Below are positions 4 to 30,206 of a stretch of 51,824 nucleotides of DNA, in pieces. The stretch is taken from NCBI GenBank assembly GCA_023381755.1, contig JAMCUF010000022.1, positions 1-51,824 on the forward strand. The letters are read 5' to 3'. Source of the DNA: Deltaproteobacteria bacterium (GTDB lineage: Bacteria > SZUA-79 > Acidulodesulfobacterales > Acidulodesulfobacteraceae). The notes under the pieces were generated by a model. It was not told where the DNA came from and did no database searches. It saw only the letters and a list, made by a program, of their open reading frames with translations. Made by a program: the position numbers and the translations under genes. How positions within the stretch are numbered: the stretch's first letter is position 1; every line of letters begins with the position of its first letter.

Positions 4-1776
4 TTAGACGAACAAAACATGCCTTAAATGAAGTTCTCCGACAACCGACCTGTGGTAATTTTCCCATGCCCTCATCAACTCGTGCAAATTGGCTGCCGCA
101 AGTTTTGGAGCATCGGCTTTAAGCCTGTTTAAAAGGTCCAGGCCCCTTAAAAGGCTTGCCTCGCTCGTCCTGTAAAACGTCGAAGTGCCGGCAACATATT
201 CGTCCATGAGTTTATTTAACCTGAACAGATAAAGCCTTGGTTTTATGTAGTTTGGATTAACATTCGGCTCGGTGGAATAATCCTTGAATTTTTCGAATGT
301 AATCATCGGGCCGTAAATTTCTTCGGCAAGGGTTTTATTGTCGGTATGAACCGTCGGCGCATAACCCGAATCGTCTAATATAAACCTGACGGCGGCTTTT
401 GCGGCTATTCTCCCCTCGGTATATGAACCGGACGAAAACTTATGCCCTGAAGCTCCGACGCCGTCCCCGCCCGTGAAAAGCCCGTTAACGGTTGTCATGC
501 GGTTATAACCCCAGTGCCATTCTTTAGGCGATATATCGGCCGGACCGCTAACCCACATTCCGCAAGCCCCCGCATGCGAACCAAGGAAATACGGCTCTGT
601 CGGCATAACCTCGGAATTTGTCTCCTGAGGGTCTATATCCATTGCGGCCCAAAGTCCCGCCTGGGCAACCGTCATATCAAGAAAATCTTCCCATGCGTCG
701 GCCTCCAGCGATTTTTTCCTTTTTTCCGGAAGGGTTTCGAAAAGCTGCTTCATCGCCCCTGAAGTGTTCATATAAAACGGGCCGTTACCCTCCAGCCAAT
801 CTTTGAGCATAGTGTGGTTCCAGAGGCAGGTCGCGGGAACATGGGCAAGCCCGTATGGTGGGTAATCTTTAAGCATGTCTCCCCACTTCTGCATATAGTC
901 TTCGCCGTGGGCATTTAAAACCCTGGATTTAAACAAGGTGAACCAGGCCCCGACGGGACCGTAGCCGTCTTTGAATCTATTAGGAACAAATCTATTTTCC
1001 ATCGTGGTCATTTCCGCTCCGGCTCCATATCCCATGGCATATGTAGAACCGGCATTCCATATGGCATACCACGTTCTTCCCATACCCTCGGCCTGAGACC
1101 TTGGCCTGAATACGTTAACCGTGCCGCCGCACGCCATTATTACGGCTTTTGCCTTGAATATGTAAATCTTTGCATCCCTTAAGCTGAAACCTATTGCACC
1201 CGCAATCCTGTTTTCATGCTTTTCGTCCATTAGAAGCCTTGTTATAAAAACCCTTTCGTAAATATTTTCCTCCCCAAGGGCTTTTCTTGCCGCCTCGGCA
1301 ACCAAAACCTTGTAAGATTCGCCGTGAATCATTATCTGCCATTTTCCAGCCCTGAGAGGCCTGGCTCCCTCCTCGATAGTCCTGGTATCTTCCTCGTCTT
1401 CTTTAAATATCGGAAGGCCGAACTTCTCGAAAAGTTGAACGGAGGTATCGACATGCCTGCCTACATCATAGATAAGGTCTTCCCTGACTATGCCCATAAG
1501 GTCGTTTGCGACCATTTTTACATAATCTTCGGGCGTATTATCCCCAAGATATGTATTGATTGCCGAAAGTCCCATTGCAACCGCCCCGCTCCTTTCTATC
1601 GCGGCCTTTTCGACTAAGGTTATTTTCATATCTTTCGGAGCCCATTTTTTTACTTCGAATGCGGCGCCGCATCCTGCCATACCGCCGCCCACTAATAAAA
1701 GGTCGGTATTGATTTCTTCTATCTTATAGTTTGCCAAGGCATCGGCGCTTGTCATTGAACCTTTTTGATCAGCCAT
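4..1776 (-). CDS. aprA: Adenylylsulfate (APS) reductase alpha subunit, C-terminally short
   Basis: 590-aa ORF with an FAD-binding N-terminus (LLVGGGMAGCGAAFEVKK) and AprA-like sequence throughout (LRAGKWQIMIHGESYK, FLGSHAGACGMWVSGP, GLFTGGDGVGASGHKFSSGSYTEGRIAAK); adjacent to aprB and sat. Ends HLRHVLFV*, where the family normally continues. Confidence 0.95.
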   Translation of the reverse strand: MADQKGSMTSADALANYKIEEINTDLLLVGGGMAGCGAAFEVKKWAPKDMKITLVEKAAIERSGAVAMGLSAINTYLGDNTPEDYVKMVANDLMGIVREDLIYDVGRHVDTSVQLFEKFGLPIFKEDEEDTRTIEEGARPLRAGKWQIMIHGESYKVLVAEAARKALGEENIYERVFITRLLMDEKHENRIAGAIGFSLRDAKIYIFKAKAVIMACGGTVNVFRPRSQAEGMGRTWYAIWNAGSTYAMGYGAGAEMTTMENRFVPNRFKDGYGPVGAWFTLFKSRVLNAHGEDYMQKWGDMLKDYPPYGLAHVPATCLWNHTMLKDWLEGNGPFYMNTSGAMKQLFETLPEKRKKSLEADAWEDFLDMTVAQAGLWAAMDIDPQETNSEVMPTEPYFLGSHAGACGMWVSGPADISPKEWHWGYNRMTTVNGLFTGGDGVGASGHKFSSGSYTEGRIAAKAAVRFILDDSGYAPTVHTDNKTLAEEIYGPMITFEKFKDYSTEPNVNPNYIKPRLYLFRLNKLMDEYVAGTSTFYRTSEASLLRGLDLLNRLKADAPKLAAANLHELMRAWENYHRSVVGELHLRHVLFV

Positions 1777-1840: not shown

Positions 1841-2281
1841 CTATTTTTGTGGAACTGCAAGCGTCTTTCCTGCCTCGGTGCATAACAGCTCGCTTTTTAA
1901 ATCTCCCCCGCTTACTTCGGGCATTCCATGATAAGGGTCGATCCCTCCTTCAGGCGTTGTTCTAATCGGAAATTTAAACCTTTTAAGCTTTCCGTTTCGA
2001 TATTTTATCGTCCACATTATGGAATCGGAACCGCGCATCGGAATAACCGATGAACCCAGCGGGGCAAAATCCTGATACGCTCTCACTTCGATAGCCGACT
2101 GTGGACATATTTTTACGCAGCTGTAACACTCCCAGCATTGGTCAGGCTCCTGATTATAAGCCTTCATGACATCTTTGTTAAGAACCATAAGGTCGTTAGG
2201 ACAGATATACTGGCAGGCGGTCTTATCCCTCCCTTTACAACCATCGCATTTTTCCGTAATTACAAAACTTGGCATTTTCAT
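1841..2281 (-). CDS. aprB: Adenylylsulfate reductase beta subunit (ferredoxin-like)
   Basis: 146 aa; MPSFVITEKCDGCKGRDKTACQYICPNDLM...CWECYSCVKICPQSAIEVR, two 4Fe-4S motifs; directly upstream of aprA. Confidence 0.97.
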   Translation of the reverse strand: MKMPSFVITEKCDGCKGRDKTACQYICPNDLMVLNKDVMKAYNQEPDQCWECYSCVKICPQSAIEVRAYQDFAPLGSSVIPMRGSDSIMWTIKYRNGKLKRFKFPIRTTPEGGIDPYHGMPEVSGGDLKSELLCTEAGKTLAVPQK

Positions 2282-2405: not shown

Positions 2406-3629
2406 TTATATTTCACCTTTTGCCGCCTTGTGCAGTTTAACCTCGACTTTGTCGTCTTTAGAAAGGGAAGCATAATAATCCTTTAATATCGCTAATACTT
2501 CAGGCCTCGAAAAATGCCCGGGCACTTCCTGAGATTCCGATAGCAGTTTTCTTAGCATTGTCCCGCTTAAAACAAGCCTGTCTTCCTTCGAATGCGGACA
2601 GGTTCTGGTGGATGCCATGCCGTCGCACTTATAGCAATAAAATGTCCAGTCCATTTTAAACGGTTTTAATTCAAGCGCATTTTTCGGAATTTCATCGAAT
2701 ATTTTATGCGCATCGAACGGCCCGTAATAGTCTCCCACTCCGGCATGGTCCCTTCCGACAATTAAATGCGAACATCCGTAGTTCTGCCTGAAAACGGCAT
2801 GAAGGAGCGCCTCTCTCGGACCCGCATATCTCATCTCCATGGGATAACCTGCCTGAACAATCGTATTTTTAACAAAATATTTATCTATTAAGGTATTTAT
2901 AGCAGCCGCCCTAACATGCGCAGGTATATCCCCCGGCTTTAATTTACCGATAAGCTGATGGATTAAAACGCCGTCGGTAGTTTCTACCGCAATCTTTGCA
3001 AGGTATTCATGCGAGCGATGCATGGGATTTCTTGTCTGAAAAGCGGCAACGGTATTCCAGCCCTTTTCTTCGAATACTTTTCTTACCTCTGCCGGACGCA
3101 TGTAAATTTCCTTAAACTCGTCAGGATATGACCCCTCGCTTAAAACCTTGACCTTTCCCGCAATATTGACATCTCCCTGAGCCATAACCTTTTGAACTCC
3201 GGGATGCTCCATATCGGTAGTTTTGAATATCTTTTGGCATTCGTATGCCTTGTCTATCGAATACTTCTCGCTTACCTTGATTATCCCTATAATCTCTGAG
3301 GTTTCCGAGTCCACGAGCGCCGCATCCTCACCTATTTGAATTTTATCCGCTAAATCCCTACCGGCCGAAAGGGTGATCGGAATAGGCCAAAACGTTCCGT
3401 CTTCCATCGTAAAGCTATCTGCAACGCTTTTCCAATCATTTTTTCCCATAAATCCTTCTAAGGGTGTAAACGCACCGATGCCCATCATTATCAAATCAGA
3501 TGTTTCCCTTGATGTCATAGGCACTTTTTTAAGCGTTTCCGCCTTTGCCTTTGCTTCTTTAAGTTCAGACCCCGATAACAATAAAGGCTTTAACCTTTTT
3601 TCTTTTCCGTGAGGATTGACTAACGGCAT
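2406..3629 (-). CDS. sat: Sulfate adenylyltransferase (ATP sulfurylase)
   Basis: 407 aa; [16 protein letters not shown] and [19 protein letters not shown] motifs of ATP sulfurylase. Confidence 0.97.
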
Positions 3630-3684: not shown

Positions 3685-3984
3685 TTATCCCCACGTAACG
3701 GGATTATGGTCGCAAACCTTTTCAACAAAACCCTTATAATCTATCAAGCTGACATTTTCTATCAGCTCGCTTTCGGAAATCCCTCTTGCTTTGACGTCGG
3801 CAACCAAGCAAAAAACCTTGTTATTCTGTAAAACACCTTTTATTAAGTTTTCGAATTTCCCCCCTTTCTTCGCCGAATATATTCCGTCCTCGGTTAATAA
3901 CAATATATCTTTTTCCCTTATATACTTTAACGAATCGTTAAGGGCCGACGACTCGTAAGGCGACCTTTTAACTATATGCAACAT
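3685..3984 (-). CDS. dsrH: DsrH/TusB-like sulfur relay protein
   Basis: Small protein MLHIVKRSPYESSALNDSL...DILLLTEDGIYSA; third of three consecutive DsrE-family genes. Start moved to the internal Met of the 107-aa ORF (4008). Confidence 0.85.
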   Translation of the reverse strand: MLHIVKRSPYESSALNDSLKYIREKDILLLTEDGIYSAKKGGKFENLIKGVLQNNKVFCLVADVKARGISESELIENVSLIDYKGFVEKVCDHNPVTWG

Positions 3985-4045
3985 CTTATTTCCCTCCCGA
4001 AAATTCAATATCGATAAAAAAATTATTACTAAAATAATAATGCCA

Positions 4046-4417
4046 TTAAAACGGCAATAATGCCTTCATTTCGTCCATCTTTTGCCTTAAAACATTTCTG
4101 TCCAAAACCTCAACCTCCGTAATTAAATCGCTTTCATCCAGCCCCCTTTCCTTAAGCGATTCCTTTTCTACGTATAAATGGGAAACTTCGAAATCGTCTT
4201 TTATGACAAGGTAAGTTTGGGTAAAATTTTTGATATTTAATAAGGAAGGATCCTGCCCCTTTTTTAAAGAAAAAACCCCGTCTCCAATGAAAGCAACGCT
4301 GATGTCCTGTTCGTATGAACTAAACATAATCATTGCCTCTATGGCTTCCTGTTCATAAATAGTGCCGTAAGGAGCGGTACTGCATATAAACATAATTTTT
4401 GTTTTTTGATCTCCCAT
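4046..4417 (-). CDS. dsrF: DsrF/TusC-like sulfur relay protein
   Basis: 123 aa; DsrE/F-like fold pattern (IMFICSTAPYGTIYEQEAIEAMIMFSSYEQDISVAFIGDGVFSL), middle gene of the dsrEFH order. Confidence 0.85.
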   Translation of the reverse strand: MGDQKTKIMFICSTAPYGTIYEQEAIEAMIMFSSYEQDISVAFIGDGVFSLKKGQDPSLLNIKNFTQTYLVIKDDFEVSHLYVEKESLKERGLDESDLITEVEVLDRNVLRQKMDEMKALLPF

Positions 4418-4447
4418 TAGATATGTTCTCCTTCTTTAATAAAAATT

Positions 4448-4798
4448 TTAAAAGGTTACCAGCCTGTCGGATTCTATTGACAACTCAAGGAGCTGCCCCA
4501 GACCGGATATCTCCGCGGATTCGTTCACCGTGTCCTGCGTCACCCCCCTTCTTTTTCCCGCGGCAACGCAAATCACCAGCCTAACCCCTTTTGACTTGAG
4601 AGTGTCCATGTATGACTTTATGTTTCTATCACCCTGGGGCGGCTCTAAATATTTGTTGCCTGCATACACGGCATCGTCGTAAAAGAATATGCCTATAATC
4701 TCATGACCCATCTCTATTGCGGCATTAACAAAATGATAAACGCTGTCAAAAGCCTGATTGTTATAAGGGCTTTCCTTTACCAATATACCGAATTTCAT
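4448..4798 (-). CDS. dsrE: DsrE/TusD-like sulfurtransferase
   Basis: 116 aa; KFGILVKESPYNNQAFDSVYHF...LVICVAAGKRRGV. Cys at residue 77 sits in the conserved CVAA..RRGV motif of DsrE/TusD. Confidence 0.9.
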   Translation of the reverse strand: MKFGILVKESPYNNQAFDSVYHFVNAAIEMGHEIIGIFFYDDAVYAGNKYLEPPQGDRNIKSYMDTLKSKGVRLVICVAAGKRRGVTQDTVNESAEISGLGQLLELSIESDRLVTF

Positions 4799-4885
4799 CG
4801 ATCCTCCCGCATTTTAATTAATGCTTTAATTTAATAGATTTTAAAAATTTTTAATCCGTTTTAAAAACCGCGGATATTGAAAACA

Positions 4886-6376
4886 TCATAAAATTATGGC
4901 GGAACTGACAAGCTGATGGATACCTCCCACCATTTCCGCGTCCAAACCATACAACGGATACATTTTTGTAAACTGGGTCTTGCAAATTGCGCATATCAAT
5001 GCAAGGAAATTCACGCCCTTATTGTCCATTGCCTCCCTAATAGCTTGCATTTTGGGCATTGAACCGGCAATCCTTACGTTCATTACTTCATCGGTTAGTA
5101 TTCCGCCGCCGCCGCCGCAACAGTAAGTCTCTGCCTTATTAGTCCCGTTCCTCAATTCATGAAAATTATTTGCACATGCTTTTATAAGCTCCCTCGGGAT
5201 AATAAACTGACCCTCCGGCATCATGCCCATTCTTGAACCGCGCGCAACATTACATGAATCATGGTATGTAATTATTTTATCGTCGTTTGCCGACGGATCC
5301 ATTTTAATAGCCCCGTCTTTGACAAGCCCGAGCGTAAAATCGCAAATATGGGTAGGCTGCCTGTATTTGCTGTCAAGAAAATCGAACGGACCATTCATAG
5401 TATTGCTGTAACTGTACATAGCCCTCCAGGCATGGCCGCATTCACCTGCTATGACCCTCTTTACTTTAAGCCTTTTTGCCTCATCCCATATACGTTTATT
5501 TACCTCTTGCGTATTCCGGTAACTTCCGATAAACATGCCGAAATTAGCGGCCTCCGATGCATAGGAAGAAACCGTAAAACTGATGCCTGCCTTATAAAAC
5601 ACCTTTGCATAGCCTATCAAAGACTCCATATGAGGCATCGCAAAAAAATCGGCGGACGGCACGATGAGGAGAACTTCTGCGCCTTCCGCGTCCATAGGAA
5701 TCTTAATATCCTTTCCCGTGGCATCTTTTATTTCCTCTTCAAGCTCATCGAGGGTATTCCGGAGCGCGGCTGACGGAATACCTATATTGTTCCCCGTATT
5801 AAATACCTTGTGTATTATAACGGTAGAATATTTTTGTCCGAGGCCGATACCGTTCATAATTTCCCGTGCGGCCATTGTTATTACCGCCGTATCTATCCCG
5901 TACGGGCAGTAATAAGAGCATCTCCTGCATTCCGAACATTGATAATAGTAAGTAAACCACTTTTTAAGCATCTCCATGCTAAAAGGCTCGGCATCGGCCA
6001 GACCTTTAAAAAGGCTGCCTGCGGGCGTAAAATAGTACCTGTAAACCCTCCTCATTAACTCAGCCCTTCCGACGGGCATGTTGTTCGAATCCCCCGTACC
6101 GAGAAAAAACTGGCATTTATCGGTGCACGCGCCGCATCTAACGCAGATGTCCATATAATCCCTAAGGGCCTTATTGTGAGTCAAAAGCTGCTTAAATATC
6201 CCTACCGCCTTAATTTCCCATCCTTCCTCCAACGATGCCGGAAAACCGAGCGCGGCCATATCGTCCTTTTCACCCTGGTACATCTTTTCATAAGCGCTTG
6301 CACCCGGGACAACCTTAGGAACCTTGATCTCGCCGGTTAATACGGGAACTTTATAAGATGCTTTCGCTTTAGCCAT
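4886..6376 (-). CDS. dsrK: DsrK, HdrD-like Fe-S subunit of the sulfite reduction-associated membrane complex
   Basis: 496 aa; two ferredoxin motifs (CVRCGACTDKCQFF, CSECRRCSYYCPYGID) and a CCG-type domain (YHDSCNVARG...YCCGGGGGILTDE...CAICKTQF); next to dsrM. Confidence 0.93.
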   Translation of the reverse strand: MAKAKASYKVPVLTGEIKVPKVVPGASAYEKMYQGEKDDMAALGFPASLEEGWEIKAVGIFKQLLTHNKALRDYMDICVRCGACTDKCQFFLGTGDSNNMPVGRAELMRRVYRYYFTPAGSLFKGLADAEPFSMEMLKKWFTYYYQCSECRRCSYYCPYGIDTAVITMAAREIMNGIGLGQKYSTVIIHKVFNTGNNIGIPSAALRNTLDELEEEIKDATGKDIKIPMDAEGAEVLLIVPSADFFAMPHMESLIGYAKVFYKAGISFTVSSYASEAANFGMFIGSYRNTQEVNKRIWDEAKRLKVKRVIAGECGHAWRAMYSYSNTMNGPFDFLDSKYRQPTHICDFTLGLVKDGAIKMDPSANDDKIITYHDSCNVARGSRMGMMPEGQFIIPRELIKACANNFHELRNGTNKAETYCCGGGGGILTDEVMNVRIAGSMPKMQAIREAMDNKGVNFLALICAICKTQFTKMYPLYGLDAEMVGGIHQLVSSAIIL

Positions 6377-6510
6377 CGCTTTGCCTCCTGTTTACCTTTA
6401 ATCGTTTTCCTTATATGGAAAAAACTATTTTATATTTTAAATTAATTCAAAATTTAACGGACGACATTCTTGCTATGGTCCCTATGACCCCGCCGGTTGA
6501 AAAAATCCCG

Positions 6511-7272
6511 TCAAAGGCTTAAGTCTTCGGCATCCGGCTTGTAATACCTTTCTTCTTGCGGATTATCCGTCATATAACGGGTAGGACTGAAAAATACACC
6601 TACAAAATGCATCACCTTGCTAAAGGGTATATATGCAACAAGCAAAAGGATTAACGAATAATGAACGATAAAATAAGGGTTGCCGGGAATATTTATAGGA
6701 TGAAACACGGCGATGCCGGTAACAAACGGATCGAGTTTGTTATCAATCTTCGTGAGGGCGGGCGCGGATATAAAAAAATTCAACGATAATCCTGTAACGG
6801 CGATCATCATTAAAATGATAAGTATTAAATAATCCGAAAGAATAGAGATAATCCTCACCCTGTCAACAATCATTCTGCGAAAAAGCAGGTAAAACAACGA
6901 AAGGAACATGAAGATGCCGCAAACTATGCCGATGCTGACAAAGAGCTGATACCATGAAGGCAACGGATGATGGTAAACGAAATGACGTGCAAAATGCAGC
7001 AATATAAGCAGTAAAAACGAAATATGAAAAATATATCCGGCAACCCATGTAGGCTTATTTGCCCTGTATAAACTCCTAAATAATAAAACCTCGCTTGCAA
7101 CCCTGCCGGCAGCCCCCATTGGAGTCAGGGGAGCGGGGGTCAGGGGAATTTTTACCGGCATCGGAGTTTTGGCATATATAATTATTCTCAGCACAACGCC
7201 GATTATGAAAATAGCGCCTGCAAGGTAAGTTAAAAAAACATATATACCGCTTACGAAGTTTAAGTCCAACAT
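6511..7272 (-). CDS. dsrM: DsrM, NarI-like membrane cytochrome b subunit
   Basis: 253 aa with several TM helices and histidines (FHISFLLLILLHFARHFVYHH), upstream of dsrK. Confidence 0.88.
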   Translation of the reverse strand: MLDLNFVSGIYVFLTYLAGAIFIIGVVLRIIIYAKTPMPVKIPLTPAPLTPMGAAGRVASEVLLFRSLYRANKPTWVAGYIFHISFLLLILLHFARHFVYHHPLPSWYQLFVSIGIVCGIFMFLSLFYLLFRRMIVDRVRIISILSDYLILIILMMIAVTGLSLNFFISAPALTKIDNKLDPFVTGIAVFHPINIPGNPYFIVHYSLILLLVAYIPFSKVMHFVGVFFSPTRYMTDNPQEERYYKPDAEDLSL

Positions 7273-7324
7273 AATTTTGACCCCCTTTCAATTCTTAATA
7301 AAACATAGGAATTTCCATATTTTA

Positions 7325-7666
7325 TTATACGCAACCCGTAGGTTTCGGAAGGCCTGCTACCTTGGCAAGCTGTTTAGCGGGACCCTCTGGAAAAAGTTCA
7401 TAAACGAATTTATTTGCTTCCTTTTTATCGGACAAATTCTCAAGCTTTTCCACTTCTTTTATGAGAGACTTAATGGCGGGGGCAACCTGAAACTTAAAAA
7501 AGTAGTCCCTTACCCATTCTATTAACTTCCAGTGCTTCTCTGTAAGCGTAATCCCCTCGTCTTTAGCAAGATATCCGGCTATCTCTTTGTTCCAGTCGTC
7601 AAGGACTTGCAGATAACCTTCATCGTCGGTCTCAATTGTCTTACCATTAAACTCAAAAGACGGCAT
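7325..7666 (-). CDS. DsrC/TusE/DsvC family sulfur carrier, single-cysteine variant
   Basis: 113 aa; EGYLQVLDDWNKEIAGYLAKDEGITLTEKHWKLIEWVRDYFFKF...GLPKPTGCV. DsrC-family C-terminus, but only one Cys in the protein. Confidence 0.93.
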   Translation of the reverse strand: MPSFEFNGKTIETDDEGYLQVLDDWNKEIAGYLAKDEGITLTEKHWKLIEWVRDYFFKFQVAPAIKSLIKEVEKLENLSDKKEANKFVYELFPEGPAKQLAKVAGLPKPTGCV

Positions 7667-7756
7667 AATAATTAACCTCCCCTCTATTATAATTAATTAT
7701 AATTAATATTGCCCTTAATTCTGCGATAAGATTAAGGATTAAAAAATTTTTAAATT

Positions 7757-9448
7757 TTAACTCATTATAATATAACCGCATGGACAGCTTTCGAAGCATT
7801 TAGCGCAGCCGTTGCATGTTTCTAAATGAAACTCGTAATGCAGGCCCTTTTGCAGCATTTTTACGCAACCCTTGGAGCAATACATGAAGCAGTTGCCGCA
7901 GTCGTAACATAAGCCGCAACTCAGGCATCTTTTGGCCTCCCGCACAAATTCCTCCTTGGATAATCCATAAACAACACGTTGAAAGTCATTCCTTACCTCG
8001 GTTATTTCTCTTATCCGCCTTTCTTGCCGCTCCGCCGGCTCATAAAATTCCAGGTGCATGTCCTTGTGGCTTACGAGTTGCCTTTTATCCGCCGGCACAG
8101 GTTCGCCGCTTAACCTTTCGTGTATTGAAAAGGCAGCGGAATTTCCGGAACCGATCGCCTGGGTTACAAGCCAGAACCCTATTGCGTCCCCTCCTGCAAA
8201 AACACCTTCTTCTCCATCGATCAAACCTTTATCATTAATGCTCAAATATCCTTTTTTTAAATTTTTACTTATATCCTCAAGACCGGAAAAATCGGGCTTC
8301 TGTCCAAGAGAAGCGATCAGCGCCGAACATTCGATAGTGAACCGGGGATCGGTTTCCAGCATAATAAACTGTGCCCTGCCCGAAGCATCCTTTTCGCTCA
8401 GCCTTGTTTTTTGAAAAACAACGGACAAAGTTCCGTCACCCTTATCATTATTGACGCTAACCGGGGCAGCCATAAACTCAAAACCGACCCCTTCGGAGAT
8501 AGCAGCCATAACTTCCTCAGGGTTTGCGGGCATCTGTTCGCGGCCCCTTCTGTAAACTACGGTCACCTTTTCCGTCTTCGGCAGCCTGATGGCGGTTCTG
8601 GCGCAGTCCATTGCGGAATCCCCTCCTCCGATAACTATGACGTGCATGCCAAGATCGGGCACTTCGCCGCTGTTGACACGCTTTAAAAACTCGATCCCGC
8701 TGAAAACATTCGGCAGGCTTAATTCATCTATGCCAAGCGATATATTGTTATACGCACCTATGCCGATAAACACCGCATCGAATTCCCTCTTGAGGCGTTC
8801 AAGCATCAAATCTTTTCCCACCGTGGAATTAAATACGAATTCAACCCCGATATCCTTTATTCTGTTAATTTCAGCGTCAAGAACATCTTCGGGAAGGCGA
8901 AAATCCGGTATCCCGTAACGGAGCATGCCGCCAGCCTTTCCTAATTTTTCAAAAACGGTAACATTATAACCCCTTCTTGCAAGCTGATAAGCGCAGCTTA
9001 AGCCCGCGGGCCCGCTGCCGACGACGGCAACCCTTTCCTTCCTTCTTTCATCCGTAAGCTTTTTCAACGGCAGCTTATTTTCAATACCGAAATCACCGAT
9101 GAACATCTCGGCGGCGTTTATAGCAACAGCTTTGTCTTTCGCCGCCCTGTTGCATGACGTTTCACACGGATGGGGGCAGACCCGCCCCGTAACCGCCGGG
9201 AAAGGATTTGTATCGGTAAGTATATAAAAACCCTCTCTTATCGACTCGTCTATCTCCCTGCCGTACGCTTCGCTCTGAGCAACATACTGCAAATACTCCC
9301 TTATTTTTTCGCTGTTAGGGCAACTGTCCATGCAGGGAGGCTTTTTTTCGACATAACTGGGGCGCAGGGCCGATTGTTCCATAACGCTGGACGCTCCAAA
9401 CTGCCTGCCCCCGATTGCCCTTTTTATTTTTTTAATCTCGACAGCCAT
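7757..9448 (-). CDS. dsrL: DsrL-like NAD(P)H oxidoreductase (GltD-like flavoprotein with C-terminal ferredoxin domain)
   Basis: 563 aa; VAVVGSGPAGLSCAYQLARRGYNVTVFE, VIVIGGGDSAMDCARTAIR...VVYRRGREQMPA, C-terminal CLSCGLCYDCGNCFMYC...CNGCAKCFESCP; located between dsrD and dsrC. Confidence 0.88.
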   Translation of the reverse strand: MAVEIKKIKRAIGGRQFGASSVMEQSALRPSYVEKKPPCMDSCPNSEKIREYLQYVAQSEAYGREIDESIREGFYILTDTNPFPAVTGRVCPHPCETSCNRAAKDKAVAINAAEMFIGDFGIENKLPLKKLTDERRKERVAVVGSGPAGLSCAYQLARRGYNVTVFEKLGKAGGMLRYGIPDFRLPEDVLDAEINRIKDIGVEFVFNSTVGKDLMLERLKREFDAVFIGIGAYNNISLGIDELSLPNVFSGIEFLKRVNSGEVPDLGMHVIVIGGGDSAMDCARTAIRLPKTEKVTVVYRRGREQMPANPEEVMAAISEGVGFEFMAAPVSVNNDKGDGTLSVVFQKTRLSEKDASGRAQFIMLETDPRFTIECSALIASLGQKPDFSGLEDISKNLKKGYLSINDKGLIDGEEGVFAGGDAIGFWLVTQAIGSGNSAAFSIHERLSGEPVPADKRQLVSHKDMHLEFYEPAERQERRIREITEVRNDFQRVVYGLSKEEFVREAKRCLSCGLCYDCGNCFMYCSKGCVKMLQKGLHYEFHLETCNGCAKCFESCPCGYIIMS

Positions 9449-9531
9449 CTCCTTATTATTCCTCTTCGTTCATTTATTTCCGGTTTATTTTGGTTTATTT
9501 TATTTAGGCACTGCGCCTGCCTTCTTTTGTT

Positions 9532-9762
9532 TTACTCCGGCAGCGAGAGAAAGCTGCCTCCGGCATAACCGTATATCAAACGGCCGGAATCGGTAAGCTC
9601 CCTGATGGCGGACTTAACATCGTCTTTTGTGACATCGCTTGCCGAAAACTTAACCTCCATTTCTTTGACCACATCCCCGGGTTTAAATCTCTTTCTATTG
9701 ACAAACTCCCTAATAAGATTAACGATGGCCTCCTCTAATTGGGCCTTAGTTTCATCCGTCAT
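9532..9762 (-). CDS. dsrD: DsrD winged-helix protein
   Basis: 76 aa; EEAIVNLIREFVNRKRFKPGDVVKEMEVKFSASDVTKDDVKSAIRELTDSGRLIY; immediately downstream of dsrB. Confidence 0.93.
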   Translation of the reverse strand: MTDETKAQLEEAIVNLIREFVNRKRFKPGDVVKEMEVKFSASDVTKDDVKSAIRELTDSGRLIYGYAGGSFLSLPE

Positions 9763-9802
9763 TTTAAGCCTCCATATTATAAAACCATAAATACTACATT
9801 GC

Positions 9803-10888
9803 CTATTGCCTTACCTGGGCGGAGTAGTTCATCGTCGCTTCGCCAAGTCTGAAATCATCAATATGGTATTTTGTAAATTTAAATCCAGTAATCTTAAAGA
9901 ATTTGGGCCAGCCTATCCTTTCAATCCATTCCCCGACCCTTTCCCCTTTCTCTGCGCCGTTTTTGTAAGCATCGAGTATTGTTTTAACGGCCTCCACAAC
10001 CTTTGGCCAGCGCGGCGGATCATTTTCTAAATACGACACGGCAAGCTTTGAAAATGAAGGTTTAGTCCTGGCATTGGATACCTTGCCGCCAACCCATATG
10101 GATACGCCGTCGTTTAAGGGGTCGGATATAGGCATGCCGGGGCAAACCGTAAAACAGTTGCCGCAGAAAACGCATGCCTCTTCGATAAGCTTCACGCTCG
10201 GCTTTCCGTTATATGTATCCGGCCTGATCGCATTGGTAGGGCACGACGCTATCGTGCTTGGAATTTCGCAGAGATTTATTATCTTATCGGAAAGAAGTTT
10301 CGGCGGCCTTCTATGTATTCCCAGAACTGCGATGTCGGAGCAATGAACAGCTCCGCACATATTCAGGCAGCATGCAAAAGCTATTCTCACTTTTGCCGGC
10401 AGCTTGGCATCTATATAATATTCGTAAAGGTCGTCCATAAGCGACTTGGTCACGCCCGACGCATCGGAGGCCGCCGTATGGCAGTGTATCCACCCCTGCG
10501 TATGAACAATATTTGCAACAACATTACCTATGCCGCCTAAAGGAAGATTTAACTTTTTAATATCGTTCATAAGCGGCTCTATATTATCTTCTTTATCGAG
10601 CAAAAACTCAACATTATTTCTTGTCGTAAACCTAAGATACCCTTCGCTATATTTATCGGCAAGGTCGCATAAATCCTTTATAAAAGACCCACTGACAAGT
10701 CTTGGGGACCCGACCCTGACAGAATAAATCTTGTCGCCGGTCTCTGAAACGTGGACCATATGGGCCGTGCTTAAAATTTCGTGATATTTCCACTTTCCAT
10801 AATTGTTTTTAATAACTGGATGCAGGAAGTCATGGTAATCATGAGGACCGACATCGGTAATTCTCTTTGTTCCGGAAACATCAGGCAT
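9803..10888 (-). CDS. dsrB: Dissimilatory (bi)sulfite reductase beta subunit
   Basis: 361 aa; siroheme/4Fe-4S motif [21 protein letters not shown] and ferredoxin motif [16 protein letters not shown]. Confidence 0.97.
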
Positions 10889-11051
10889 AAAAACCTCCTT
10901 TTATAATACTGCAATTATGCATATATATAGATATATAGCCAGTAGATTATTATTGTTATAATTATTTATTATTTTTATATATGTTATATGCCGTTGGGTT
11001 TAATTATCATTTATTATTTTATTCTTATTGATTTTTATCTTTTATCCCCAT

Positions 11052-12272
11052 TTATCCCTGAGGAGATTCACCCTGCCCTTCATCCGCTTCCACGTAGTCT
11101 TCGTACAATACAAACGGGTTCCCCCTTGGGCTGGAAACCATTTCGGGAAGAGGTTCGAGCCCTATGGCCTCAAGAAAATTGCCTATGCCGACTCTCTGGA
11201 TTAATTCCCCTATTCTCTCCCTGTTGACGCCGTATTCATCCCAGAATTCCCATATTTTTCCGACGAAGTCTTTGAACCATTGATACCCGTTTTTGGCATC
11301 CTCGGCTACGTCATAAAATGGGACCAGGACCATCGAAAGACGGGGGCCTGAAACCATGGGCGCCTTTGACCCGAGAAGAATGGTCGCCCCTCCCTTGATA
11401 CCTGGACGCAGGGCTTTAGGCATTACATTTATACAGTGCATACATTTTGAACAGTTTGAATCGTCTATCTCAAGGCCGGTGTCGCTATAATTCATACATT
11501 TCGTGGGACACTTGCTGGTAACATATTTATGCAGGTTCATCTTCTTCGCATATTCTTTCACCATGCCCTGGTCTATTCGTATGTTGTCCTTCCATGTCCC
11601 TATAATAGACATGTCCGCCCTTGCAATAGATGCGGTGCAATCGTTTCCGCAACCGGAAAATTTGAATTTAAACTTGTAATTGAATATCGGCCTGTGCATC
11701 TCATCCTGAAAAGCCTGGGTAATATTGTAACAAATATGCATGGCGTCATAATTTGCAAATTCACATCTTGCCATGCCGACGCAGCATGAAGGCGTTCTTA
11801 ATGCGGAACCGCTACCCCCGAGGTCAAATCCGAATGACACCAATTGTTGAAAGATGGTTTCAAGTTCCGACGTTTTTACGCCAAGGATCTGGATATCGCC
11901 GGTTGAACCATGAAAGTTAAAAAGACTGGAAGCATGTTTTTCTCCTATATCCACTATCTTTCTCAGGCTATCGGATTTATAAAAAAACCCTGACGGCTGA
12001 TTAATTCTTACCGTGTGAAATTCCTTTACGCCGGGATATTTTTCCGGCAGATCGGAAAACCTGCCGACAATGCCGCTTCCGTAACCTTTAACGCCCACCA
12101 TTCCGCCATGTTTCCAATGACCCATCTTTTCCTTGTAGGACTGCTCAACCTGTCCCAAAAGATCACCGGTCATTTCGCTTGTTTCCGCGGCTCTTTCCAT
12201 TTCGGCAACAAAACTAGGCCACTTTCCCTTTTTTAGCTCGTCAAGAAGCGGAGTTTCATACTTTTTGCCCAT
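11052..12272 (-). CDS. dsrA: Dissimilatory (bi)sulfite reductase alpha subunit
   Basis: 406 aa; CCVGMARCEFANYDAMHICYN, FSGCGNDCTASIARADMSIIGTW, ferredoxin motif CSKCMHCINVMPKAL. Confidence 0.97.
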   Translation of the reverse strand: MGKKYETPLLDELKKGKWPSFVAEMERAAETSEMTGDLLGQVEQSYKEKMGHWKHGGMVGVKGYGSGIVGRFSDLPEKYPGVKEFHTVRINQPSGFFYKSDSLRKIVDIGEKHASSLFNFHGSTGDIQILGVKTSELETIFQQLVSFGFDLGGSGSALRTPSCCVGMARCEFANYDAMHICYNITQAFQDEMHRPIFNYKFKFKFSGCGNDCTASIARADMSIIGTWKDNIRIDQGMVKEYAKKMNLHKYVTSKCPTKCMNYSDTGLEIDDSNCSKCMHCINVMPKALRPGIKGGATILLGSKAPMVSGPRLSMVLVPFYDVAEDAKNGYQWFKDFVGKIWEFWDEYGVNRERIGELIQRVGIGNFLEAIGLEPLPEMVSSPRGNPFVLYEDYVEADEGQGESPQG

Positions 12273-12512: not shown

Positions 12513-13997
12513 TTATTTTATTTTTAAAAGGTCTTTTCTGATTTCTTTGATAAAAGATACCCAATTTTTAAACCATTTGGGCGCAGCGGGGGAAAATACG
12601 TGCGTATAACTTGCGATTATATTTTTATAAATAATACCGTCGCTTGTCCCGTTTACCCCGAATCCCTTCTCCACATTAAAAGCAAAATTCATGTTATTTG
12701 ACAACGGCGTTTCTAAATTTTCTAAATATGAATGGTGAAATTCATGCCCTTTGATAGATTTAATCTTATTAAACCATAACCTGCCATTTTTATCGTAAAA
12801 GACGGGTGTTAATTTGGTATATCCATGCCCCTTCGGTCTTTTTGTCCATTTTACGCCGGCATCTATTGCCCCCACCATTTCGTACATAATGCCGTCGCAG
12901 GCAATACTTCTGCAAAGATACATAAGGCCGCCGCATTCCGCATAGACGGGAAGACCTGTTTCTATCTTTTCCCTTATATCCCTTCTTAAATTAATATTTG
13001 CCTCTAAATCCTTGCAAAAAATCTCGGGAAAACCTCCTCCTATATAAAGGGCGTCAACTTCAGGCAGGCTAACATCTTCAAGCGGGGAAAATTTGAAAAT
13101 ATCGCAACCCAGGTTTTCAAGAGCTTTAATATTTTCATTATAATAAAAATTAAATGCACCGTCATAGGCGAGCCCGATTTTAACCCTTCTTACGCCCCTG
13201 CCGGATTCGGTTTTTGCGGGAGGCGTAATGATATTATATTTTAATTTTATATTGCCATAAGATTTAGTCAAGGATTGGGGTGCTATCCTTGATATATCTA
13301 TAATGCCTTCTAAATCGAGGCAATTTAAAATTTTAGAGGATATATTAAAAACAAGGTTTTCGATGTCTTTTCCCGCGAGTGTGGATAAAAGGCCGAGATG
13401 CCGCTGTTTTATGGACAACTCCGGGTCATTCGGGATATTACCTACCACCTTTAAATCGGTATAATAATTGATCGCTTTTATAAGATTTTTTTCATGCCTT
13501 TTGCTATGAACCTTGTTTAGTATTACTCCTTTTATATTCACATTTTTATCGAAATTTACAAACCCTAAAAGCAATGGAACAACGCCTCTGTTTAACTCTC
13601 CAACGTCGATTACAAGAATGACGGGAAGGCTTAAAAGTTTTGCCATGGACGCGTTTGAAGATTTTCCGTATAAGTCAAAAGAGTCATATAACCCATGATT
13701 TCCTTCTATAATACTAATGTCCGAATTAAGCGAATATTCTAAAAAATGTTTTTTAATTTTGTCTTTGGACATAAAATAAAAATCCAGGTTATAGCAGTTT
13801 TTACCCGTAGCCGCACTCAGCCACATCGGGTCTATAAAATCCGGACCCTTTTTAAACGGCTGGACTATAAGACCCTTATCCCTGAGCAGGCGCATTACGG
13901 CAATAGAAATGGTAGTCTTGCCTGAATTCCTTTTTGCCGCAGATATGTAAAGCCCTTGAATTTGATAATCCTTATTTTTGAAAATCTTTTCCATCAA
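12513..13997 (-). CDS. dsrN: DsrN/CbiA-like cobyrinate a,c-diamide synthase family amidotransferase (probable siroheme amidation)
   Basis: 494 aa; P-loop-like GLYISAAKRNSGKTTISIAVMRLLRDKG, VQPFKKGPDFIDPMWLSAATG, EGNHGLYDSFD, glutaminase-like YAECGGLMYL. Next to dsrAB, hence DsrN rather than a cobalamin-only role. Confidence 0.82.
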   Translation of the reverse strand: MMEKIFKNKDYQIQGLYISAAKRNSGKTTISIAVMRLLRDKGLIVQPFKKGPDFIDPMWLSAATGKNCYNLDFYFMSKDKIKKHFLEYSLNSDISIIEGNHGLYDSFDLYGKSSNASMAKLLSLPVILVIDVGELNRGVVPLLLGFVNFDKNVNIKGVILNKVHSKRHEKNLIKAINYYTDLKVVGNIPNDPELSIKQRHLGLLSTLAGKDIENLVFNISSKILNCLDLEGIIDISRIAPQSLTKSYGNIKLKYNIITPPAKTESGRGVRRVKIGLAYDGAFNFYYNENIKALENLGCDIFKFSPLEDVSLPEVDALYIGGGFPEIFCKDLEANINLRRDIREKIETGLPVYAECGGLMYLCRSIACDGIMYEMVGAIDAGVKWTKRPKGHGYTKLTPVFYDKNGRLWFNKIKSIKGHEFHHSYLENLETPLSNNMNFAFNVEKGFGVNGTSDGIIYKNIIASYTHVFSPAAPKWFKNWVSFIKEIRKDLLKIK

Positions 13998-14325
13998 CCG
14001 GATTCCTAAACGATTTTATCGTAGAAATTTTTTTAAGTTTATATGAAGAAAGGTTTTTATTTTCGGTATCTTTATTTTCCAATAAAAATAACCTGTCAAC
14101 GGCAAGAAGAAACAAAGAAAATTCATATTCTGCCGTTTTTTGCTTGTCAAAGTAGCGCTGTAAAAAGGCAAACTCATTATCCTCTTCTATAAGTTTGCTT
14201 ATATGAAATACCTCGAGTTTGCCCATTAAAGGAAGTTCGGCAAAATATTTTAGTAATTCACCCACCCTGTCCCCGTCTAATTCGGTAATCCCTAAAATAT
14301 ATTCTAAATCGTATTTAATTTTCAT
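13972..14325 (-). CDS. Hypothetical protein overlapping dsrN
   Basis: 117-aa ORF on the same strand whose 3' end overlaps the dsrN start by about 26 nt; no motif recognised. Confidence 0.6.
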   Translation of the reverse strand: MKIKYDLEYILGITELDGDRVGELLKYFAELPLMGKLEVFHISKLIEEDNEFAFLQRYFDKQKTAEYEFSLFLLAVDRLFLLENKDTENKNLSSYKLKKISTIKSFRNPVDGKDFQK

Positions 14326-25606: not shown

Positions 25607-28600
25607 TTACTTATTTACTTTATTTTTTAATTCAAATTTTTTCCATATAAAATATAAAACCGGCATCATAAGAAGGTTTAAAATTCCGCTGCTTATCATC
25701 CCGCCGACCATAGGCGACGCTATGAACTTTGTCATTCTTGCGCCCGTGCCGTAGGCGAACATCGCGGGAAGAAGTCCGATAATGATGGACATTGCCGTCA
25801 TAACTACAGGGCGAAGCCTTATTATCGAGCCTTTAATTACTATCTGCTCTATGTCGGCGCCGGCTTCGTAATAATTATGGAACGTAAGCTCCAGTATGGA
25901 AATCATAACCACCCCTATTTCCGTCGATACCCCCATTGCAGCGATGATGCCGACCCATACGGCGACGGACATCGTTATATGCATAAGATAAAGATACCAG
26001 AACGCCCCGACTAAGGCAAAGGGTATTGAAAAAAGCGCCAGAAGCGATAACGGTATGGATTTAAAATTAAAGTATATCAAAAGGAAGATAATAAATATGG
26101 TTATGGGAATTATAACCATAAGCTTGTTATTTGCCCTTTTGAGGGATTTATACTCTCCGCTTATGACAAAAGTATAGCCCTTGGGGAATTTAACGTATTT
26201 ATTAATCATTTTTTTAGCGTTTTTAGCCCATAATACCATATTGGACGTGTTTAAAGTTATATCGACCGTATCGTCCGGCGTTCCTCCCTGCGAAGATATG
26301 AAAGACGGGCCCAGTTCATACTTTATAGCTGCAAGTTCCTTCAAGGGTATGAATCCGCTGTCGGTTTTTACGAGTATATTTCCCAGGGATTCTAAATTAT
26401 TTCTATAGGCATAAGGGTATCTGACCGAAAGCGGGTAACGGGCTAATCCGTCGTAAACAGTGCTTATCGTCTTGCCGCCCACAGAGGAGTTTATAGCTTC
26501 GTTTATGCTTTTTAAAGGTATTCCGTAAAAACCCATGGCATCTGCATTCGGTTTGATTGCTATATATGGTCTGTTATAAACCCTTTCGGCATAAGCGCTC
26601 AATGTTCCCCTTACCATGGAAGCGGCTCCGGCAACCCCCTCCGCCAATTTTTGCAGGATTTTTACGTTAGAACCGTATATTTTTATTCCTATAGGCGTCC
26701 TTAAACCGGCGGACGTCATTTCTATCCTGTTTTTAATGGGCATCGTCCACACGTTTTCGAGACCGGGTATGTTTAATGCTTTATTCATTTTATTAATCAG
26801 CTTTGAGGCGGTCATGCCGGCAGGCCAATATTTCCTTCTTTTTAAAACGATCGTTGTTTCGGTCATGCTTAAAGATGCAGGGTCAAAAGCCGTATTTGCC
26901 CTGCCTGCTTTTCCGGTAACCATTTTTACTTCCGAAAATTTTTTGATTATCCTGTCCTCTATCTGTAAAAGCTGTGCCGCATCGGTGTAAGAATAACCCG
27001 GAGTAGAGGAAGGCATATATAAAAGCGTTCCTTCGTTTAGTGGCGGCATAAACTGCGAGCCGAGCCTGACAAACGCAAAATATCCGCTTGCCAGAAAGAC
27101 AAAGAGCATGGTCAAAAATACAGCTTTATGTTTCATGATAAATTTTAAGACGGGCGAGTACAAAAAAACTAAAAATCTGTTTATAGGATTTTTATCTAAA
27201 GGCATTATCCTGCCTCTAATCAAATAAACCATGAGGATAGGCACGAATATGACGGAAATGACCGCCGCAAAAACCATTGAGAATGTTTTAGTGTATGCTA
27301 ACGGCCTGAACAATGCACCTACCTCGCCCGTTAAAAAGAAAATCGGCAGAAATCCCACCGCTATAATAATAAGCGAGTAAAAAAGGGGCTTACCCATCTC
27401 TTTAGCGGAATCTACAATGCATAATTTTCTTGCTTCATCTTTATCTTCCATGTTTCCATAAGGGCTGCTTTCCGGATTATCTTCTAAAATTTCCAGATGC
27501 GAATGGGAATTTTCGATCATTACTATAGCGGAATCGGTCATTGCGCCGATTGCAAGCACTATACCGGAAAGAGACATTATGTTTGCGCTTATGTGAAGCA
27601 TATACATGAGCAAAAATGCTCCGAGAATAGCAAACGGAATCATTATAACGATAACCAAGGACGACCTTAAATGGAACAGGAAGAGCATAATGACGAAGAT
27701 GACTATTAAAACTATCATAATAAGCGTGGTTTTAAGCGTAGAAACGGAAGCGGCAATAAGGGTGCTCTGGTCGTATGTAGTTATTATTTTTGCATCTTTT
27801 GGGAGGGAGTTTTTAAGTTCTTTGAGTTTGTTTTTTACAGCGGCAATTACTTTTAGCGTGTCCGAACCCTGATCTTTTATGACCACCCCGCCTATCATCT
27901 GTCCTTTGCCGTTTAAATCGGAAATAGAACGGGAGGGAGCAGGCACTAATTGAACTATTCCTACGTTTTTGACTAAAACAGGCGTGTGGGCGGATGTGGT
28001 ACCCACGACGATATTTCGCATCTGGTTTAAATTATGAAGATAACCCTTGACGTAGATTAAATGGCTTACTCCCGACGAAGAGTTTATAACCCTTGCCCCG
28101 GTGTCGGAGTTGGAAGATTTTATATTATTAATCACCTGAGACAACGATAAATCATAATACTGAAGCGCTTTCGGATTAATTGTAACCTGATACTCTTTAT
28201 TCCAGCCGCCGTAAGTCGCAACCTGCGCCACTCCCGGCACGGTTTCTAAGGCATACCTAAGGAAATACTCCTGATAGGAATATAAATCGGCTAAACTCTG
28301 ATTATGCGCTTTGTCTATTATCGCATACTGGTAAACCCAGTCCACGCCGTTTGCGTAAGGGCTTAAAACTGGAGAAACACCCGGAGGGAGAAGTTTTTTT
28401 GCCTGGGACAGGTATGTAAGTATCTGCGCCCTCGCCCATCCTAACGAGGTACCTCTTTTAAATACGACCGTAACAAAAGAGGTGCCGTACATGGAATTCC
28501 CCCTGACCTCTTTAACCCTCGGAGCAGAGATAAGCGAAGACTCTATGGGATATGTTACCTGAAGCTGGACTATGTTCGGCGGCTGGCCCGGCCATGCCGT

Positions 28601-28783
28601 TTTGATAATAACTTCGGAAGGCGCTATATCGGGAAGGGCGTTAAGCCTTATATTGTAAATCGCGTAAACCCCGCCAAGTCCCAGAAAAAGCATAAAAACA
28701 AAAACTAAAAACATGTTGTTTATAGAGTAATCTATTATTTTATTTATCATAAGTATTCTCCGGTATTTTAGGCAATATCTCAA
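25607..28783 (-). CDS. cusA: CusA-type heavy-metal RND efflux pump, probably Cu(I)/Ag(I)
   Basis: 1058 aa; NIRLNALPDIAPSEVIIKTAWPGQPPNIVQLQVTYP, LLYMPSSTPGYS, LSMTETTIVLKRRKYWPAGMT, IEMTSAGLRTPIGIKIYG. True start probably at internal MINKIIDYS. Confidence 0.93.
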   Translation of the reverse strand: MRYCLKYRRILMINKIIDYSINNMFLVFVFMLFLGLGGVYAIYNIRLNALPDIAPSEVIIKTAWPGQPPNIVQLQVTYPIESSLISAPRVKEVRGNSMYGTSFVTVVFKRGTSLGWARAQILTYLSQAKKLLPPGVSPVLSPYANGVDWVYQYAIIDKAHNQSLADLYSYQEYFLRYALETVPGVAQVATYGGWNKEYQVTINPKALQYYDLSLSQVINNIKSSNSDTGARVINSSSGVSHLIYVKGYLHNLNQMRNIVVGTTSAHTPVLVKNVGIVQLVPAPSRSISDLNGKGQMIGGVVIKDQGSDTLKVIAAVKNKLKELKNSLPKDAKIITTYDQSTLIAASVSTLKTTLIMIVLIVIFVIMLFLFHLRSSLVIVIMIPFAILGAFLLMYMLHISANIMSLSGIVLAIGAMTDSAIVMIENSHSHLEILEDNPESSPYGNMEDKDEARKLCIVDSAKEMGKPLFYSLIIIAVGFLPIFFLTGEVGALFRPLAYTKTFSMVFAAVISVIFVPILMVYLIRGRIMPLDKNPINRFLVFLYSPVLKFIMKHKAVFLTMLFVFLASGYFAFVRLGSQFMPPLNEGTLLYMPSSTPGYSYTDAAQLLQIEDRIIKKFSEVKMVTGKAGRANTAFDPASLSMTETTIVLKRRKYWPAGMTASKLINKMNKALNIPGLENVWTMPIKNRIEMTSAGLRTPIGIKIYGSNVKILQKLAEGVAGAASMVRGTLSAYAERVYNRPYIAIKPNADAMGFYGIPLKSINEAINSSVGGKTISTVYDGLARYPLSVRYPYAYRNNLESLGNILVKTDSGFIPLKELAAIKYELGPSFISSQGGTPDDTVDITLNTSNMVLWAKNAKKMINKYVKFPKGYTFVISGEYKSLKRANNKLMVIIPITIFIIFLLIYFNFKSIPLSLLALFSIPFALVGAFWYLYLMHITMSVAVWVGIIAAMGVSTEIGVVMISILELTFHNYYEAGADIEQIVIKGSIIRLRPVVMTAMSIIIGLLPAMFAYGTGARMTKFIASPMVGGMISSGILNLLMMPVLYFIWKKFELKNKVNK

Positions 28784-28830
28784 TATTAAATTTTAAATTC
28801 CGATTTTATTATTCTTTCGCATCGCTTACG

Positions 28831-30183
28831 TCACATGCCGGACATACCAGCCATGGAAGAAGTCTTTTTCCGTTGACTCGAATTGTTTGACATTCCAGCA
28901 ATTCCCTGCGTTCCTGCCGTAGAAGAAGCCTTCTGCGATAAATTTGAATTATTTGACATTCCGGCCATCCCTGGCATTCCAGCCATGGAACCGGCCGTCT
29001 GCGATAGATTAGAGTCGCTAGACATAAGGAACGTTCCCGATACGACGATTCTTTCGCCGCCTTTTACTCCCGATATTACTGGATAGTAATTACCGTATCT
29101 TGTTCCTATAACGACATATTCCGGCATAAAATACCCCTTTCCTTTATAAACGAATATAAGGGGTTTAGCTCCGGTAATAAGAACGGCGGACGCAGGAACC
29201 GCAACGACCTTTTCGCTTTTAACCATAATTTCGGCATTCCCGTACATACCAGGTTTTATCTCGCCGTTTGGATTGTTAAAAACGAGCCTGACCTCGTCAA
29301 CCCTTTTTTTGCCGGCAAGATAAGGGTAAATAAACGAAACCCTGCCATAAAACACCCGCCCGGGATAGGCATTGAATCTTACCCTTACCGCTTCCCCCGT
29401 CTTTACGAAAGGCATATCCTTTTCATAGACCCATATATTCATCCATACGCGGTTAAGCCCCGCCAGTTTATAAAGCGGTTGTCCCGCATTGAAATAACTT
29501 CCCGAAAAAATCGATTTTTTCAAGAAGACGCCGTTTATCGGCGAATAAACGGTAGTATTTGTCAAAATAAGCCTTCCCGTTTTTAACAGGTTCAACTGGC
29601 TGTTTGTTATGCCGAACTGTTTGAGTCTGAAGACGGAGGAGTTTAAAAAAGCTTTAGCCTCTTTTATCCCGAAATTAAAATTGGATTTTTTTAATTTTAT
29701 ATAATTTTCATAGGCAAGCATAAAATCTTTTTCGCTGTTGACTAACTCTGGGCTGTAAACCGTAAAAATAGGCTCCCCCTTATAAACGCCCATACCCGGT
29801 TTATTTATAAAGAGGTTTTTGACGTAACCGCCGTACTTCAACGTTACGGTTCTTTCTAAGGGAACGCTGTAAGCAACCTCGCCTATGGTTTTAATTTTTC
29901 TTGTTAAATTCATTAATTTTGCTTTTCCGACTTTTATGCCGTAAAGCTGTCTTTGAACCGTACTGACTATTATTGCGCCCTTAGCCATGTGAGCTCCGCT
30001 ATGCGAAAGCACGTCTTTCGCGGTAGGTTCTATTTTTAGTTTTGTGTTTACGCTCTTTCCGGCGGAAATCTGTTTTTGTCCGGTAAATATATTAATATTT
30101 TTAAAAAATATAACCGTAACAATGCCGCCGAGAATAAAGGCGAATAAAAATATTAAAATGTTTTTAGCATTATAAGTTTTCAT
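28831..30183 (-). CDS. cusB: CusB-type periplasmic adaptor (membrane fusion protein) with Met-rich C-terminal repeat tail
   Basis: 450 aa; VPLERTVTLKYGGYVKNLFINKPGMGVYKGEPIFTVYSPELV, LYKLAGLNRVWMNIWVYEKDMPFVKTGEAV; tail SNLSQTAGSMAGMPGMAGMSNN repeated. Confidence 0.93.
   Translation of the reverse strand: MKTYNAKNILIFLFAFILGGIVTVIFFKNINIFTGQKQISAGKSVNTKLKIEPTAKDVLSHSGAHMAKGAIIVSTVQRQLYGIKVGKAKLMNLTRKIKTIGEVAYSVPLERTVTLKYGGYVKNLFINKPGMGVYKGEPIFTVYSPELVNSEKDFMLAYENYIKLKKSNFNFGIKEAKAFLNSSVFRLKQFGITNSQLNLLKTGRLILTNTTVYSPINGVFLKKSIFSGSYFNAGQPLYKLAGLNRVWMNIWVYEKDMPFVKTGEAVRVRFNAYPGRVFYGRVSFIYPYLAGKKRVDEVRLVFNNPNGEIKPGMYGNAEIMVKSEKVVAVPASAVLITGAKPLIFVYKGKGYFMPEYVVIGTRYGNYYPVISGVKGGERIVVSGTFLMSSDSNLSQTAGSMAGMPGMAGMSNNSNLSQKASSTAGTQGIAGMSNNSSQRKKTSSMAGMSGM
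28834..29013 (-). repeat. Tandem imperfect 66-bp (22-aa) repeats, about 2.7 copies, encoding the Met-rich CusB tail
   Basis: SNLSQTAGSMAGMPGMAGMSNN / SNLSQKASSTAGTQGIAGMSNN / SSQRKKTSSMAGMSGM, read directly from the ORF. Confidence 0.85.
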
Positions 30184-30206
30184 TTTAATTAACTCCTCAG
30201 TTTATA

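Follow-up and report, generated by a model that had tools for sequence, protein, structure and literature searches.

The 51,824-nucleotide stretch analysed here (contig JAMCUF010000022.1, below called the window) carries a dsr cluster in which markers of sulfite reduction and of sulfur oxidation stand side by side, and it raises the question of how, and in which direction, such a pathway handles sulfur. The whole cluster lies on the minus strand with the transcription order dsrA-B-D-L-C-M-K-E-F-H-sat-aprB-aprA, and the dsr genes are all intact. The host genome is a member of Candidatus Acidulodesulfobacterales, an order for which the mixed reductive/oxidative gene set is already known. Three features go beyond the published set: a DsrC protein with a single cysteine across a whole dsrAB-carrying clade, the joint absence of dsrC and dsrE from exactly those relatives that lack dsrAB, and the apparent exchange of a gene module within the operon. 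The first and the third are the parts worth pursuing.

The sole cysteine of the window's DsrC is the penultimate Cys112 (CysA). The position of CysB, 11 residues before CysA, is occupied by Ala101, whose codon (gcc) is two base changes away from one for Cys. This dsrC is the only copy found in the host genome, although the assembly is a fragmented draft (877 kb, compared with 1.4–3.0 Mb in relatives, yet rated 86% complete) in which absence calls are weak. The same state was found throughout the order: each of the 20 full-length DsrCs (20/20) has one Cys and Ala at the CysB position, and CysA is invariant. By contrast, CysB is present in 45/45 dsrAB-linked DsrCs of other lineages, and also in five further genomes and in the solved DsrCs of Allochromatium vinosum, Archaeoglobus fulgidus, Desulfovibrio vulgaris and Pyrobaculum. 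According to Stockdreher 2012, CysB is strictly conserved wherever energy metabolism is sulfur-based; it occurs only in organisms with DsrAB, and in organisms lacking DsrAB its place is almost always taken by Ala, Ser or Thr. Acidulodesulfobacterales break this published rule coupling CysB to DsrAB. The intramolecular DsrC trisulfide, which is an intermediate in the reductive model and in the 2026 reverse model for cable bacteria, is impossible for a DsrC with one cysteine.

A second group of this kind came to light via the metagenome-assembled genome G041, labelled Campylobacterales. Five dsrAB genomes of this sister, Desulfurella-like lineage lack CysB and have Val instead, and their dsr-linked DsrC ends in ...QLVRYAGLSKPTGCV. 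On contigs that span the region, dsrM or dsrMK comes after dsrABDLC. dsrE was not found in these five genomes, so that DsrEFH is not a general substitute for CysB. In the DsrC tree, which is built on few columns, the CysB state is explained by one change. Comparison with Desulfurella amilsii (PMC5317093, PMC7596348) gives the order dsrA, B, C, M, K with a gap between B and C that could hold two genes, and a DsrL-2 with the YRR motif in both, with no JOP. The sister-lineage genomes with this layout lack CysB like the window but, unlike the window, have no dsrE that could be found. Gene order and a second dsrC are as in D. amilsii, and one or more of these genomes may belong to that species. The abstract of a 2019 study of the D. 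amilsii proteome by Florentino is said to describe a modified sulfite reduction with DsrE and DsrL, and the study may already mention the missing cysteine. That study lay outside our search, in which, as far as it went, no mention of the missing DsrC cysteine was found in Tan 2019 (PMC6776010), Loffler 2020 (PMC7596348) or Neukirchen 2023, nor in any other paper that it turned up.

Elsewhere in the complex, the search for a compensating cysteine showed that DsrM C118 occurs in 79% of the family and appears, by eye, to lie within a membrane helix. As a separate observation, the DsrK cysteine motif closest to the C-terminus has the form C-x2-C (ICAICK) in the window and in loci L085, L108 and L122, and the remaining dsrAB-linked DsrKs examined have C-x-C (CICAIDK) there; this may separate two DsrK types. 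It was rejected as a lineage-specific compensation for CysB, the C-x2-C form being found in those three loci also.

The features of the window on which the rest of the argument draws are as follows.

4175..12218, no strand: cassette with greater similarity to G007 (genus g5) than to same-genus relatives (identity profile, three-sequence scan, per-gene identities, discordant trees)
11052..12272, minus: dsrA, reductive-type sulfite reductase alpha subunit, type B of the order (TIGR02064, 493 bits; PDB 3mm5_A, 2e-134; tree)
9803..10888, minus: dsrB, sulfite reductase beta subunit (TIGR02066, 478 bits; PDB 3mm5_B, 3e-133)
9532..9762, minus: predicted dsrD, divergent, winged-helix fold, 76 residues (alignment with dsrB-adjacent open reading frames; model with a predicted local distance difference test score, pLDDT, of 95)
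7757..9448, minus: dsrL, type 2, YRR NADP motif kept (family model, tree; motif meaning from PMC7596348)
7325..7666, minus: dsrC, single cysteine Cys112, Ala101 (codon gcc) at the CysB position (TIGR03342, 137 bits)
6511..7272, minus: dsrM, short (253 residues) cytochrome b-type membrane subunit (PF02665, 4e-14; NF038037, 113 bits against a cut-off of 300)
4886..6376, minus: dsrK (NF045796, 506 bits)
4448..4798, minus: dsrE, active Cys77 kept (TIGR03012, 103 bits; PDB 2hy5_A, 1e-25)
4046..4417, minus: dsrF, with the junction of the cassette at about 4175, in the 3' part of the gene or close to it (TIGR03010, 112 bits)
3685..3984, minus: dsrH, Ser aligned to A. vinosum Cys20 (TIGR03011, 81 bits; alignment with PDB 2hy5_C)
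2406..3629, minus: sat, sulfate adenylyltransferase (TIGR00339, 404 bits)
1841..2281, minus: aprB (TIGR02060, 221 bits)
4..1776, minus: aprA, truncated at its 3' end where the contig begins (TIGR02061, 837 bits)
12513..13997, minus: candidate dsrN (TIGR00379, 426 bits; role as dsrN suggested by position)

Dsr gene content and order are kept in about 20 relatives, and the layout is therefore not due to chance. In same-genus genomes, qmoA, qmoB, qmoC and membrane pyrophosphatase-like genes were seen by eye downstream of aprA.

Within this conserved framework, two deeply separate dsrABDL types occur in the order, distinguished by a motif of DsrL: YNK in type A (15 sets) and YRR in type B (the window, G003, G006, G007, G012 and the second set of G018). 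The types are discordant with the Lon species tree, and the window's genus, g1, holds both. From dsrA to dsrF, the window's proteins are 84–96% identical to those of G007 (genus g5), as against 52–80% to those of the same-genus genomes G001 and G002, while for dsrH, sat and aprBA same-genus relatives are nearest. A three-sequence scan (G001, G007 and the window) yielded 1317 versus 238 sites inside 4175–12218 and 341 versus 717 outside; its score of −1079 is beyond all 500 shuffles (minimum −717). Other genomes have their junctions elsewhere, at dsrC|dsrM in G006, G012 and G018b and at dsrL|dsrC in G009 (AP1) and G011. Same-genus G003 also carries a type-B cassette with same-genus flanks. Together, these sequence comparisons suggest that 4175–12218 is an exchanged cassette with a YRR-type DsrL where published members of the order have YNK, the only form reported for DsrL of this order (Loffler 2020, PMC7596348). 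The DsrL of the sister lineage has YRR, which suggests that YNK is derived. The spread of the cassette reads as homologous recombination within a conserved operon, although for the window alone a chimeric contig is possible.

Two observations adjoin this pattern. The candidate dsrN (12513–14000) is nearest to G009 and G001 (74–86% nucleotide identity), unlike the adjoining cassette, and G003 differs there; this gene may have its own exchange history. In the draft genome G018, both dsr types, A and B, are present on two contigs (L044 and L045), which could reflect a two-operon strain or mixed bins.

The window's DsrA matches that of A. fulgidus at 2e-134 and is only 40% identical to a phage rDsrA. 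In the DsrA tree the family stands apart from the oxidative reference (a single one, the phage Lau218 rDsrA, plasmids having yielded no dsrB references), in agreement with Tan 2019 (PMC6776010). By sequence, the window's DsrAB is of the reductive type. DsrL in turn groups with DsrL-2-like proteins adjoining reductive-type dsrAB, in a tree without DsrL-1 or GltD rows. Both placements followed checks proposed by the sequence-only reading, and its YRR motif (VTVVYRRGRE) is exact; such a motif at the NADP phosphate site has been tied to NADP(H) (Loffler 2020, PMC7596348), which the window's DsrL may thus use.

The claim that an intact dsrD follows dsrB stands as regards an intact gene in place, with the qualification that the gene is divergent. 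The 76-residue candidate has no match to Pfam PF08679 even at E=0.1 and no direct match in Pfam, NCBIfam or PDB sequence searches; a genome-wide search with the Pfam DsrD model gave no match in any genome and is hence uninformative. The candidate nevertheless aligns over its length with the small open reading frame adjacent to dsrB at 33 other loci, and PF08679 does recognise 3 of the 34 aligned sequences (best E 2e-6). Structure prediction gives the candidate a winged-helix fold with high confidence (pLDDT 95); DsrD (1ucr/1wq2) is one of numerous winged-helix proteins in PDB that this model resembles, so that the fold does not discriminate. On position, alignment, PF08679-matching relatives and fold model, the small open reading frame is identified as a divergent DsrD.

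The presence of dsrL and a complete dsrEFH in the same cluster as dsrD was borne out, with DsrE, DsrF and DsrH above the family-model cut-offs, and the DsrE motif CVAAGKRRGV with Cys77 is exact. With three syntenic subunits and the active Cys in DsrE, this DsrEFH is of type I. It is a Dsr rather than a Tus complex, as had been proposed: DsrE is nearer to A. vinosum DsrE (1e-25) than to Escherichia coli TusD (4e-16), and DsrH is nearer to A. vinosum DsrH (9e-17) than to E. coli TusB (2e-6). Both dsrC and dsrE were found in every dsrAB-positive relative searched, and they are missing exactly where dsrAB is missing: neither was found in the dsrAB-negative relatives G004, G013 and G015, and dsrE was not found in G017. 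MnmA, on the other hand, passes its cut-off in G004 and G013, and G015 has a strong match to it. As MnmA persists where dsrAB is missing but dsrC and dsrE do not, these two would serve Dsr and not tRNA thiolation, and DsrC would be a working partner of DsrAB; a TusE-type role independent of DsrAB is not what was found for the window's DsrC. In A. vinosum, transfer of sulfur from DsrE Cys78 to DsrC needs CysA only, whereas DsrH Cys20 is needed in vivo for sulfur oxidation (Stockdreher 2012). The window's DsrH has Ser at the latter position, and among relatives Cys is found there only in G003, G007 and G009. Compared with the A. vinosum rDsr pathway (DsrEFH to DsrC to rDsrAB-DsrL-1), the window shares the DsrE Cys, DsrC CysA and a type I DsrEFH; it differs in having reductive-type DsrAB, DsrL-2 and dsrD, and in being without DsrC CysB and DsrH Cys20. 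TusA-family proteins, potential loaders of DsrEFH, are encoded in the host genome.

The mixed set itself, of which earlier reports from some uncultured Deltaproteobacteria had been noted, has in fact been published for this very order. Tan 2019 (PMC6776010) named dsrAB, dsrD, dsrL and dsrEFH, argued for sulfate reduction and possible sulfide oxidation, and found dsrD transcripts far higher than those of dsrEFH; the gene set is also described in Loffler 2020 (PMC7596348) and Neukirchen 2023. The members AP1, AP3 and AP4 (PMC6776010) share with the window the order, this gene set and reductive-type DsrAB, and the AP1 contig (L074; G009, Ca. Acididesulfobacter diazotrophicus AP1) shows the order dsrABDLCMKEFH and a one-cysteine DsrC as in the window. 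Published members carry type A, with YNK in DsrL, while the module of the window is of type B, with YRR. Mixed genomes of SAR324, Nitrospirota and Actinomycetota (PMC11406059) likewise hold dsrD, dsrL and dsrEFH together, but DsrC has both cysteines in 2/2 mixed Nitrospirota checked, unlike in the window. The joint presence of DsrL-2 and DsrEFH is regarded as no predictor of pathway direction (Loffler 2020, PMC7596348). The earlier suggestion of a reversible or disproportionating pathway may still apply, but sequence does not decide the direction.

The reading that we favour, and consider somewhat probable, is a dissimilatory sulfite/sulfate reduction with a one-thiol DsrC carrier, a DsrL-fed DsrAB, possible reversal and an operon acquired for the most part as a cassette. 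Sat would activate sulfate and AprBA would reduce the activated form; DsrAB would then reduce sulfite with NADPH electrons arriving via DsrL. DsrAB (or DsrEFH, given sulfane sulfur) would load sulfur onto DsrC Cys112, so that DsrC would carry a persulfide or be joined to a second DsrC or a small thiol by an intermolecular di- or trisulfide. DsrMK would reduce the loaded DsrC to release sulfide, with no intramolecular DsrC trisulfide. Reverse operation, with DsrEFH feeding sulfane sulfur to Cys112, could be possible because the DsrEFH-to-DsrC transfer in A. vinosum needs only CysA. Most of the operon would have come by cassette exchange with another genus of the order, replacing type A (YNK) dsrABDL by type B (YRR).

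Could DsrC be bypassed altogether, with DsrAB, DsrL and NADPH taking sulfite directly to sulfide and DsrC left as a DsrEFH sulfur shuttle or a regulator? DsrL is reported to supply electrons directly to DsrAB (Loffler 2020, PMC7596348), and the loss of CysB would fit, but dsrC and dsrMK are retained between dsrL and dsrE in every relative with a long enough contig, CysA is invariant, and the sister lineage retains dsrC without any dsrE; we regard a bypass as rather unlikely. It is likewise unlikely that this is an ordinary mixed-marker operon in which the DsrC change carries no mechanistic weight, a small thiol or another DsrC replacing CysB: the gene set is indeed the one described in the three earlier studies, in which no mention of the cysteine was found as far as searched, and the strict conservation claimed for CysB speaks against an inconsequential change. 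The one-cysteine DsrC and the DsrH without Cys20 do resemble the Tus state of organisms lacking DsrAB, and a TusBCDE relay for tRNA thiolation placed in the dsr operon would account for both; however, with dsrC and dsrE lost from dsrAB-less relatives that keep MnmA, and with sequences nearer to DsrE/DsrH than to TusD/TusB, such a relay is largely refuted and highly improbable. As for the cassette, an assembly chimera of two co-occurring genera is suggested by the fragmented draft and the sharp identity change at the junctions, but it appears quite unlikely given that other drafts (G006, G012, G018b, G009 = AP1, G011) are mosaics of this kind too, with different junctions, and that the type-B cassette of G003 has same-genus flanks.

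Several points weigh against the one-thiol reduction pathway that we favour. Genes, residues, co-occurrence and trees were observed, and every catalytic step is deduced from them. The genomes are drafts, from any one of which a second DsrC could escape, though hardly from all, and the window may be a chimeric contig. DsrA, DsrB and DsrL showed no evident lineage-specific cysteine that could replace CysB, and none was common to both types. The dsrAB-less relatives all belong to genus g2 and may represent one loss only.

Outside the cluster, positions 25607–31523 of the window hold a CusA/CzcA-type heavy-metal resistance-nodulation-division efflux set (permease, adaptor and an outer-membrane-factor-like open reading frame), which suits life in acid mine drainage.

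In the accepted view, it is the DsrC trisulfide that connects sulfite reduction with energy conservation, and reverse operation is likewise explained through it. In a dsrAB clade whose DsrC cannot form it, the need for this intermediate becomes directly testable, possibly in a cultured relative. More broadly, we see an about even chance that Acidulodesulfobacterales and the Desulfurella-like bacteria run a DsrAB pathway without intramolecular trisulfide, with a one-cysteine DsrC carrier (fed by DsrEFH where present), and that exchange of a dsrABDL(C) cassette among the order's genera switches the cofactor motif of DsrL between YRR and YNK. Finding the full dsrABCMK plus EFH set is no proof of the canonical mechanism or of its direction, and checks of the DsrC CysB and DsrH Cys20 residues belong in annotation. 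If the cassette exchange is true, the sulfite-reductase/NAD(P)H module would be swappable as a unit inside a conserved operon.

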